Assembly: GCA_021030905.1 (NCBI GenBank)
Contig: JAGFMI010000025.1
Span: 124,001-188,000, forward strand
From: Pyrenula massariospora
Lineage: Eukaryota > Ascomycota > Eurotiomycetes > Pyrenulales > Pyrenulaceae
Length of the DNA stretch: 64,000 bases
Direction: 5' to 3'
Part shown: one piece after another, positions 351 to 64,000 of the stretch
Layout: each line of letters starts with the position of its first letter
Numbering within the stretch: position 1 is the stretch's first letter
Translations under genes and position numbers: made by a program
The notes under the pieces: model-generated
Seen by the model: only the letters and a program-made list of their open reading frames with translations
Told to the model about the DNA's origin: nothing
Databases searched by the model: none

Positions 351-3328
351 TCAGGATGGAGGCATCATCGTCCACGTCGCCACGTCGCACGTCAGTTCTT
401 CAAAGCTATGATGAATCGCAAATCCCATCGCCGTCAAGCTGTCAAAGTTGCTATCGCCATCGACCTAGGGCGCTGTCAGTGCGCTCTCTTAACATCATGG
501 CCAACTTAGACCTACACAATCGAGAAGCACGGCTAATGAGCCTTGCATTTTGATCTGTCGGATACCAAGCAGAATCAACCCCTGCATGAGCGAAGCGTAA
601 TCTCCAACTGACGGAGAAATCACGGCAGAGGATATGCCCCCAGTAGAAACCTTCAAATCCGTCAAAGCAGGCACATACCCAGCTAGCTTCGATTCTTGCT
701 TGTAGAGGACCACGCTTCCCAGAATGGTTCCGTCGCTTGGTCTCTTCGCTCGGATGATCCCGCACGATGTTTTCTCCATCAGAGCCAGCTTGTAGATCTC
801 CAAGACTCCCTGTCGCATATTCGTTTTTACGTGGTCGAGGATGGCATCTGCGTACTCCAAGCCATAAACAAGATCATAAGAAACATCGTTACTCTTCAGA
901 CTATGTTTGAGACCTTCGGGCGGAACCCAGCTTTGCAAATTCCTTAACACCAAACTGCACAGGGGACGAGAGAGACCTGTGTTCCAACCCATGTTAGCAA
1001 ACCATTGCCGTTGCCGTTTTCTTTCGGCCGGGTTTCCGGTTGGTATCCCAAGATATATGCTCGGAATCCGCGAGCCGAGTTGGAATCTCCTGGCACTCTT
1101 GTAATTCAGCAGCGTTCTTATTGCTCGATTATGCAGAGAGTGGCCAATCGAGTATCGTCGGCGGCTTGGATCGACCAGAATTGCGCCAATTACTCCCATG
1201 TTGACCGTCTTGAAGAAGTAAGTAGAGCAGAATCCGTAAAGCTCCTTGGTGCTGCTATTTCGAACGACAAAGTGTGCTTCGTCAACTTCAACATTTTTAA
1301 GCAGAAATTGACCACTAATAACATTAGCCAACTCGGGGTGAAGGGGTTGGGCATCCTCCGCACGAAGGCGCTGAAGGAGTGCATCTAGGGCATAGGAGTC
1401 TCGGTCTTCGTTATATTTCTCTACTAGCCAATGTTGTCGGGATTGATGTAGCTTTTGGCTCTGACTGATTGAACCTGGAAGAGATCCGGTTGGAGCGATT
1501 TCCCCATACAGAACCTTGACGAGAGCTTGTAAAGCAGTTTCTGTAAAATCGTAGGTGCATATATACGTGCCTATCGTAATATCCATTGCAAAGTCGTACG
1601 GAGAGCTGACAGACACTACGATCAGCGGTTTCTCTCTCCTCTCGCCATCTGCGGCAAGCTGAGCTTTGCAAATCATCGAAACATGTTTTGTAAACCCATT
1701 TTGATATAGATTTCGATTAGAGTCGGCTGTTATAACAATAATTGCGGCAGCTCGGCTGATAAGGTTTTCGTGAACGGGACGAACTCCATTCGCGGTGTAC
1801 GATGTATGCAGCAGCCGTCCATTCCGCTGTCGAGCCAGAGACCTACCAAATTCCCGGAATACTTGCTCCCCGCTCATTACCGATCCATTGGAAGGCCAGT
1901 ATGAGATTGTATTTGGGGGACTGCTGTTGACATGGTCTTGAAGGAACTGGGATGCCGCCGATGCAGGTAATGGCTTTAGTAATGGCGTTAAGAGCAGCAA
2001 TTCATCTTCGGGATCAAGGAGGCTGGAGAGGGGTAACAGTTTGTTCTTATCTCGAACAACTGTGATTGAACCGTTGTAAGCTTTTGTCGACAGATGTGTG
2101 TGTGATGGCTGTAATTCGGTCAAGAGAGAGATACCTGCTGGAGCAAGCGCTCTCTCCCAGGAAACGTATTCTGACTTCAGATCTAGGACGCGTTTCAAGG
2201 ATTGTCGAATCCTCGACTTCTCAATGATCCCATTTTCAACACCAAGTTTTAATCCATTGATGGCTTCTTGCTGCACGGCAAATGATCGGCATAGCAGGAT
2301 AACATCACAGCCAGCCTTCACAGCCATTACAGTTCCACCACCAACTCCAATGTTGTCGGTAAGAGCTTCCATCTCGAGACACTCGGAGACAACAACACCA
2401 TTGAATTTCATCTCCTTTCGTAAAAGATCTTCAACTACCTGTTCTGAGAGGCACGCGTGCATGACGTTTACATTCTCTGATGACATGGCAACACCACCTA
2501 CCATCATAGAATCTAAGCCTGCTGCAATAGCATTTCGAAAAGGTATGAAAGCACTAAGACTTAGCTGCTCTATAGACTCTTTTATCACAGGGACATCAGT
2601 TGGAGAACCAAGAAATTCCAGATTTCCGTAAGAAGGGAAATGCTTGCCACAAGTCGCAAGCTCGGCCTCTTGATAACCTTTCATGAACTCGACCCCGTAT
2701 GCCGATACTTCCTGTGGGTCATCCCCGGTCGCGCGTACGCCCAACGGCTGATTCCGAGCGTTTGTCAATACATCAAGAACAGGACCAAGGATCCAGTTGA
2801 CACCAACGGAACTGAGCTCTTGTGCTGTTGCTTTGGCTACGTCTTTGGCTATCTTCTTAGAACCAGTTGCTGCAAGACCCATGGCACTAGGAAATTGTCG
2901 GATAAAGATATCGTCAAAAAGACTGTTGACTCCTCCATTTTCTTGATCAAGGGCAATGGCAAGAGGCAAAGGATGGCCTGCATTGTGAGCAATGGTTTGC
3001 AGGTCAAGAACCAATTGAGCTGTTTGCTCCGCGGCTAAGCTTCATCAGTCAAGTATCAAGACTACATGAAAAGCAGAAATTATGAAATACATTTGAGGTT
3101 TTTGGCCGTCAGGAGAACGGAGCCAAGGTGATAGTCCTCAATAAGACTCTTGATCTCCGGGGTGACGGTGGTGCCATCAAAGCCCATCATAAAGAGGGAA
3201 CCGATGGACCTTAAAAAGGCCCGGTCAGCACGTGCACGGGCAACCGTTGAGACGGCCACTGACCTGTTGACATCGTCCCAGACGGGATCTAGGGGACCTC
3301 CCAGCCCCAGTGGTCCCTGTGAGGCCAT
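351..3328 (-). CDS. NGS1: GH3-like/GNAT fusion protein, Ngs1-type GlcNAc sensor
   Basis: Model: complement(join(351..464, 516..3034, 3091..3328)), 956 residues. The two introns (3035-3090, 56 bp, phase 1; 465-515, 51 bp, phase 0) have clear GT-AG ends and CTGAC-type branch sites. The last exon restores the usual C-terminus VDGDSNFDSLTAMGF. Residues about 35-360 form a NagZ-like GH3 barrel (DQENGG at 109-114, KHFPSYG at 210-216, VSECLEMEAL from 295). A GH3 C-terminal-like region follows, and from about 650 a GNAT acetyltransferase region, with an acetyl-CoA-loop-like stretch RRRYSIGHS near 704-712. There is no signal peptide, so the protein is intracellular. The same architecture is known from Candida albicans Ngs1, which binds GlcNAc and acetylates histone H3 at GlcNAc-induced promoters. 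The bacterial nucleophile motif SDD is SEC here and the NagZ loop Asp-Ser-His is absent, so hydrolysis is doubtful. It is divergent from glucosamine-6-phosphate deaminase. An intracellular beta-N-acetylglucosaminidase is the alternative role. Confidence 0.88.
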
Positions 3329-62435: not shown

Positions 62436-64000
62436 TTACTTGCTCTTTTTCAAAAACTCCGTGATCAAGCTCCCAGTGCTAGCATCATGGTCCCCAGCCT
62501 TCCCAGCCTCAATTTCCGCCTGGATCTTCTTGGCTAACACCTTGCCGAGCTCAACACCCCATTGGTCAAAGCTATTGATATTCCACACGGCGCCTTCAGT
62601 GAATGTAAGATGCTCGTAGTAGACAATTAGCGCCCCCAGCGTCGCGGGAGTGATCTTTTGAGCTAAGATGCTCGTTGTTGGGCGATTTCCCAAGAATGTC
62701 TTGTGAGGGACAAGATTCTCTGGAGCACCCTCTGCTTTGACTTGTTCGGGTGTCTTACCCACCATGAGGGCCTCAGCCTGGGCAAGGAAATTAGACGCAA
62801 GCATGCGCTGATGCTTGCCGCCCTCGACAGGGTTGTGTGATTCAGCAGCGAGGATGAAATCCGTGGGGATGAGTTTGGTTCCCTGGTGGAGGAGCTGGTA
62901 GAATGAATGCTGGGCGTTGGTGGCTGGTTCACCGAACAGAATCGGGCCAGTGGTATACTTGACATAGTCACCAGTACGTGTCACTGCTTTGCCATTCGAC
63001 TCCATAGAGAGCTGTTGGAGGTACGCAGGGAATCGATGGAGGTATTGGTCGAAGGGGGAGACGAGGTGAGTTTGAGCTCCGAAGAAGTCAGAGTACCAGA
63101 CAGAGAGGAGGCCACCAAGTACAGGAATGTTCTCTTCGAGAGGAGCGGTCTTAAAATGCTGGTCCATGGCATGGGCGCCAGCGAGGAATTGGTGAAAGTT
63201 TTCGTAGCCAATATAGAGGCAGACAGATAGGCCAATGGCAGACCAAACAGAGTAACGACCACCAACCCATGACTCGAAGCCAAACATGTTCTTCTTATCG
63301 ATACCGAATTTAGTGACTTCAGCTTCATTGGTCGACAGAGCGACAAAGTGCTTGGCAATATCGGATTCTTTGGCGCTTTTCAGAAACCACGCTTTTGCGG
63401 TGTTGGCATTCGTGGTAGTCTCAGCCGTCGTGAAAGTCTTTGAGGCAATAAGGAAGAGGGTAGTTTCTGGATCCGAGTCCTTCAGAGCTTCAGCAATATG
63501 CGTGCCATCAATGTTCGAGACAAAATGCATCGTCAGACTGCGGTCGCCATATGGTTTCAGAGCTTCGGAAACCATGACAGGTCCACTAAAGGATGTCAGA
63601 AACTGCGTCCACAGACAAGGAGGAAAAGCTTACAGATCGGAGCCGCCGATTCCGATATTAACAATAGTCTTCATTTTCTTGCCTGTATAACCCTTCCATT
63701 CTCCACTTCGCACCTGCTCGGAAAACTCTTTCATGTGCTGTAGGACCGAGTTGGTCTCTTCAACCACGCTCTTTCCATCGACCTCCATCTTCTGGTTGGT
63801 GACGTTTCGGAGAGCCACATGGTACACAGCACGCTGCTCTGTGAAGTTGATCTTGTCACCAGCGAACATCGCATCGCGCAGCTCCTCAAGCTTAGCTTCT
63901 TTAGCCAGATTGATCAAAAGCTTGAGAGTCTCATCCTGAACGATATTCTTGGAGAAGTCAAAGAGAGTCTCGCTATTGTCTGCCGAGTTCTTGAACGTCC
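62436..64000 (-). CDS. pgi1: Glucose-6-phosphate isomerase, 5' end outside window
   Basis: Model: complement(join(62436..63585, 63634..64000 and beyond)). The intron 63586-63633 (48 bp, GTAAGC...CTTTAG, branch CTGAC) joins [10 protein letters not shown] to [10 protein letters not shown], the core PGI sequence. The enzyme interconverts glucose-6-phosphate and fructose-6-phosphate in the cytosol. Visible are the phosphosugar-binding block [28 protein letters not shown] (phosphate loop), the signature [20 protein letters not shown] (written [17 protein letters not shown] here), and the C-terminal block [16 protein letters not shown] with the catalytic Lys of QWGVELGK. About 505 residues are present; about 45 N-terminal residues lie beyond base 64000. 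It ends FLKKSK. It recycles the fructose-6-phosphate made by the deaminase at 4046-5284, though as a housekeeping gene its place here may be chance. Confidence 0.96.

Follow-up and report, generated by a model that had tools for sequence, protein, structure and literature searches.

An ascomycete N-acetylglucosamine catabolic cluster of largely known kind in Pyrenula massariospora, with a resident choline-oxidation gene pair

Several described fungal systems link the sensing of N-acetylglucosamine (GlcNAc) to its use. In Candida albicans, Ngs1 combines a GlcNAc-binding glucosaminidase-like part with a GNAT part, and the NDT80-type protein Rep1 acts as its recruiter (PMC5063960). Work on Trichoderma reesei describes hxk3, dac1, dam1, nag3/ngs1 (a GH3 gene) and ron1 (for an NDT80 regulator) as cluster genes of ascomycetes, and ngt1 as encoding the transporter of the pathway; RON1 and NGS1 are both needed for induction by GlcNAc there (PMC4950302, PMC12176254). 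This article examines a stretch of 64,000 nucleotides (the window; C17:124001-188000) from the genome of Pyrenula massariospora (37.8 Mb, 33 contigs). With a probability of roughly 0.9, the window and its left flank carry the known ascomycete GlcNAc catabolic cluster; an Ndt80-type gene and the genome's only glucose-6-phosphate isomerase (PGI) gene are then neighbours, and a pair of choline-oxidation genes is an inherited resident.

The genes of the cluster are the following, with positions counted in the window unless the contig is named.

C17:121718-123424, minus strand: XprG/RON1-type gene, outside the window; open frame with an NDT80 domain, upstream exons not resolved.
351-3328, minus strand: ngs1 (nag3), pseudo-GH3 sensor with GNAT domain; hand-made model of 956 amino acids in three exons (Pfam GH3, 200.6 bits).
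4099-5284, plus strand: dam1/nagB, glucosamine-6-phosphate deaminase; a gene of several exons whose splice sites and 5' end are approximate (TIGR00502).
5649-7145, minus strand: badA, betaine aldehyde dehydrogenase (NF009725, 705.3 bits).
7845-9506, plus strand: codA, choline oxidase of the GMC family, divergent from badA (PDB 2jbv, 380.3 bits).
26047-27672, minus strand: ngt1 candidate, permease of the MFS/UNC-93 type, divergent from dac1; model of 516 amino acids.
29039-30499, plus strand: dac1, GlcNAc-6-phosphate deacetylase (TIGR00221, 185.1 bits; Amidohydro_3, 30.1 bits).
33374-35002, plus strand: hxk3/hxkC candidate, atypical hexokinase with catalytic Asp (IIND) and Lys (GKGF) kept.

Their order is XprG/RON1 - ngs1 - dam1 - badA - codA - 16.5-kb spacer - ngt1 - dac1 - hxk3, over a span of 37 kb (C17:121718-159002). 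Thus hxk3, dac1, dam1, ngt1, nag3/ngs1 and ron1 are all linked; the identity of the kinase and the permease is partly positional, and ron1/xprG lies just outside the window. A rough estimate for five other named genes lying within 40 kb of ngs1 in a 37.8-Mb genome, (80/37800)^5, gives about 4e-14 for the core linkage, and the core GlcNAc cluster is therefore not a product of chance. The window has 328 open frames of at least 70 amino acids; 30 of them were scanned against Pfam, and 10 of these 30 have a family at or above its curated cut-off. Gene models were built by hand from open frames; those of a home-made gene finder were poor because the coding signal is weak. Within the spacer, a dispersed-repeat search of 9600-22800 gave two short matches only, so this stretch is not built of dispersed repeats.

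The ngs1 product has the predicted make-up of an Ngs1-type sensor: a GH3 domain that lacks the nucleophile and the dyad and keeps the residues of the sugar site, and a C-terminal GNAT domain. When the protein is aligned to the Rhizomucor enzyme 4zm6, the nucleophile Asp is replaced by Glu and the Asp-Ser-His dyad reads Gly-Ser-Pro. The sugar-site motifs DQENG, GVR and KHFP are retained; their sugar-binding roles we assume in part from NagZ. The GNAT part aligns with the same part of 4zm6 as a second aligned stretch (63.3 bits) and scores 20.8 bits with Pfam Acetyltransf_1, for which the cut-off is 20.7. In T. reesei NGS1, Gly206, Asp208 and Glu282 stand at the variant catalytic places, and Val685 and Gly695 are the residues for acetyl-CoA (PMC12176254); the Val and Gly of LVDPSRRRYSIG in the present protein have the same spacing of 10. 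A close second copy was not found in the genome, which holds ngs1 itself and three weak GH3 matches (at most 29.7 bits).

Among the enzymes, the deaminase reaches 304.9 bits with TIGR00502 (cut-off 236.9) on the single exon frame 4373-4966. No second deaminase copy was found in the genome, as both matches are exons of dam1, and a scripted splice search, within the limits set for it, yielded no complete gene model. For dac1, NagA models take the first two places, TIGR00221 at 185.1 bits (cut-off 225.65) and NF008371 at 146.8 (cut-off 483), and Amidohydro_3 is passed at 30.1 bits (cut-off 29.7). Its motifs EGPY, IGHSD, THLFNAM and TDAM, whose roles we presume, are present. A Ser/Pro-rich insertion lies between conserved blocks of dac1, at 29894-30031. 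The permease scores above cut-off with both MFS_1 (65.4 bits) and UNC-93 (39.6 bits); it has one other genome match (62.7 bits) and no close second copy. For the UNC93 naming of the permease, no literature backing was found. NGT1 is reported to cluster with GlcNAc genes in Histoplasma capsulatum, Blastomyces dermatitidis and Aspergillus fumigatus (PMC3778022), and the position of the permease beside dac1 fits NGT1; its predicted substrate would be GlcNAc. The genome has four hexokinase genes; the one in the window shares 25.9 and 27.9% identity with the two canonical-looking hexokinases and 30.1% with the remaining one. The paralogue on contig C32 has Thr-Gly near its C-terminal end where the other hexokinases have Asp-Gly, and may be of the HxkD type.

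Three further features of the window lie beyond the run of pathway genes or in its spacer.

22854-24065, plus strand: open frame with a DUF3431 match (Pfam, 293.6 bits) within the codA-ngt1 spacer, not thought to be part of the GlcNAc pathway.
53880-55592, plus strand: NDT80 factor of the Ndt80/NdtA/FSD-1 type by its match to Ndt80 (phmmer, E 7.8e-13).
62436-64000, minus strand: glucose-6-phosphate isomerase, cut by the right window edge, with the start Met in the next bases (Pfam PGI, 616.6 bits).

Of four candidates in the genome scored with PF05224, three are NDT80 genes. An earlier note on this DNA saw the one in the window as a partner of Ngs1 of the RON1/Rep1 type, and read the full 64 kb, with PGI, as one self-contained response unit. 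The gene does encode an NDT80 DNA-binding domain (137.3 bits), and it shares a contig with ngs1 at a distance of about 51 kb. However, phmmer against PDB chains matches its protein to Saccharomyces cerevisiae Ndt80 at the E value listed above, all four distinct sequences at E<=1 are Ndt80, and its closer relative is the paralogue on contig C22, at 155 bits, the XprG-type gene scoring 65 bits. It is the XprG/RON1-type gene that directly adjoins ngs1, 926 bp past the ngs1 stop, and the protein of that gene has no Ndt80 match at E<=1; its sole match is myelin regulatory factor, at E 0.25. In published comparisons, Ndt80 is more like NdtA (E 4e-9), which is required for sexual reproduction in Aspergillus nidulans, than like XprG (E 1.6) (PMC4683649). 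The match pattern of the two Pyrenula proteins mirrors this contrast, and therefore supports the gene outside the window as RON1. Likewise, A. nidulans xprG adjoins the nag3 orthologue (PMC4950302), and A. fumigatus ronA has the next locus number after the GH3 gene (PMC12584764).

As judged by sequence, the NDT80 gene in the window is thus of the Ndt80/NdtA/FSD-1 type and not of the RON1/Rep1 type; it probably lies outside the GlcNAc cluster, and is not to be mistaken for the regulator of GlcNAc use. The RON1 of this fungus is likely the gene beside ngs1, an assignment that rests on similarity or dissimilarity to Ndt80 and on position. The proposed linkage of both regulatory parts therefore survives with a different gene, one that lies outside the window. 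The earlier note had also counted a grouping of the NDT80 protein with VIB1/XprG against its proposal. This is partly the wrong way round: RON1 and XprG are orthologues in a published tree (PMC4950302), and grouping with XprG would therefore support a RON1 role. Two of the three NDT80 genes (window 53880-55592 and C17:121718-123424) share a contig, separated by about 54.5 kb, yet seemingly belong to different branches; their proximity is probably chance. The third (C22:1337923-1340457; L003:715-3249) is a frame of 844 amino acids in which a repetitive N-terminal part, rich in Ser and Thr, is joined by an Ndt80-like domain and a long C-terminal part.

The identity of PGI is clear from NF001211 (598.3 bits, cut-off 492) and from 335 identical residues among 382 aligned to PDB chain 7oyl, which we take to be from A. 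fumigatus. A second PGI match was not found in the genome; this is therefore the housekeeping enzyme, and its linkage to the cluster says little. A chance linkage of PGI or of the Ndt80-type gene has a probability of a few per thousand each, and both were chosen after the fact. PGI is a neighbour, and its place in a dedicated module is not supported. Profile searches and alignments do bear out the presence of the Ngs1-type sensor, deaminase, putative permease, deacetylase, atypical hexokinase and PGI, and a cluster of sensor and enzymes is indeed there; the single 64-kb unit is largely refuted and must be considered very improbable.

The pair badA-codA, absent from the gene list of the earlier note, lies between the deaminase and deacetylase genes. 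The badA product exceeds the cut-off of NF009725 (593) and does not reach that of TIGR01804 (607.8 bits, cut-off 668.6); it is the top of 20 genome matches, with 16 of 24 candidates scored. For codA, the best PDB matches are choline oxidases, followed by another enzyme at 227 bits, and the next genome match has 88.1 bits. The active-site His, Glu, His, His and Asn are kept, at positions that we take to be 99, 312, 351, 466 and 510 of choline oxidase, and Ser101 is aligned to Thr. In A. fumigatus A1163, consecutive locus numbers run AFUB_083460 dacA, 083470 GMC, 083480 badA, 083490 nagA, 083500 GH3 and 083510 ronA (PMC12584764), and in Af293, AFUA_8G04080 is badA and 8G04090 is codA, a choline oxidase (PMC4551469). 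The choline pair is read as an inherited resident of this cluster, just as it is in A. fumigatus.

A wider reading would make the locus a unit for the salvage of necromass, in which XprG/RON1 with Ngs1 drives badA and codA along with GlcNAc use, so that chitin sugar and the phospholipid head groups of dead cells are used together; the pair would have stayed in its place between dam1 and dac1 from a time before this lineage and A. fumigatus diverged. This joint regulon is unlikely, although several observations agree with it. The pair holds the same cluster position in two genomes, here and, by locus numbers, in A. fumigatus. A single divergent promoter (7146-7844) serves both of its genes; ngs1/dam1 and ngt1/dac1 are arranged in the same way. 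The 83.9 kb examined contain four copies of GGAGTGAA, and three of them fall in these three promoters. In A. fumigatus, both genes of the pair are listed as up in blood, and a nutrition route through glycine betaine on nitrogen starvation has been proposed (PMC4551469). Yet choline and betaine have zero mentions in the main texts of PMC4950302, PMC12176254 and an A. nidulans XprG expression study. A literature link between choline genes and control of the GlcNAc cluster was not found among the matches listed, which is a weak negative.

Nor do the promoters favour joint control. Those of ngs1/dam1, badA/codA, ngt1/dac1 and hxk were compared with 200 sets of random stretches from the same 83.9 kb, a rough null since coding sequence is included. 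Words of seven bases common to all four number 5, against a null mean of 2.46 and a maximum of 22. No 8-mer is common to all four (null mean 0.13), 8-mers common to at least three number 3 (mean 7.6), and no 9-mer is common to at least three (mean 1.3). Because shared 8-mers are no more frequent than in random stretches, GGAGTGAA is not significant; as a shared regulatory word it is rejected, with no longer common context across the three divergent promoters. The CRCAAAW site is absent from five promoters, that of xprG being added. CACAAA occurs twice in the ngt1/dac1 promoter (0.72 expected) and in none of the others, and SYGGRG is near expectation. The Candida Rep1 motif is called adenine-rich (PMC9925049); a Yarrowia Rep1 motif was not found in PMC12570498. 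The known GlcNAc cluster with choline genes as inherited residents is preferred to the joint regulon.

Several points weigh against this assignment. The GNAT match of the ngs1 protein clears its cut-off by a marginal 0.1 bit, and the classic acetyl-CoA loop has Ser in place of its first Gly. The dac1 product stays under the nagA model cut-off, and a crude hydropathy count gives the permease 8 hydrophobic segments against the 12 expected of an MFS carrier. The hxk3 candidate, with GlcNAc as presumed substrate, is assigned solely from its position and its kept residues; the C32 paralogue keeps the same catalytic Asp and Lys, and A. nidulans HxkC is called non-catalytic (PMC3821154). A significant shared motif was not found in the four promoters. 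Finally, the A. fumigatus genes are called non-clustered (PMC12584764).

In the most likely mode of working, drawn from Candida and Trichoderma, GlcNAc would enter through Ngt1. The product of the XprG/RON1-type gene, just past the window edge, may hold Ngs1 at GlcNAc promoters; binding of GlcNAc to the dead GH3 domain would switch on the GNAT domain, which could then acetylate promoter histones. Kinase, deacetylase and deaminase would convert GlcNAc to fructose-6-phosphate.

Elsewhere in the window, 37341-39245 and 40165-42780 hold long Ser-rich open frames without a Pfam match, possibly disordered proteins; two of the three such frames are also without an NCBIfam match, with 40165-41064 outside that scan. 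At 20568-21317 (minus strand) lies a Ser-rich frame that has many Cys near its start and a single likely membrane span; its FAM174-like Pfam match is weak and below cut-off. The left flank has a DUF3591 gene (L013:7991-10000, minus strand), which we take to encode part of TAF1, and the right flank a cytochrome P450 (L014:3161-4426, minus strand).

In comparison with described systems, the cluster is of an already published kind and largely known (PMC4950302, PMC12176254, PMC3778022). The Candida Ngs1-Rep1 pairing has a predicted counterpart here in the Ngs1-type and XprG/RON1-type genes. The H. capsulatum cluster, of similar size at 75 kb, holds NGT1, HXK1, DAC1, NAG1 and GIT7, the last with a beta-hexosaminidase domain, and is GlcNAc-induced there; by contrast, NDT80 and choline each have zero mentions in the main text (PMC3778022). 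The gene set of T. reesei recurs here, whereas a 16.5-kb spacer splits the present cluster and choline or betaine genes go unmentioned in the Trichoderma main texts. In A. fumigatus, by locus numbers and a figure legend, dacA-codA-badA-nagA-GH3-ronA matches the order seen here, badA and codA included (PMC12584764, PMC4551469); the Pyrenula cluster differs in having ngt1 and the spacer between codA and dac1, and the hexokinase after dac1. It adds one more instance to the published pattern, and a possible drive of codA and badA by XprG/RON1 on GlcNAc is its only mildly novel element.

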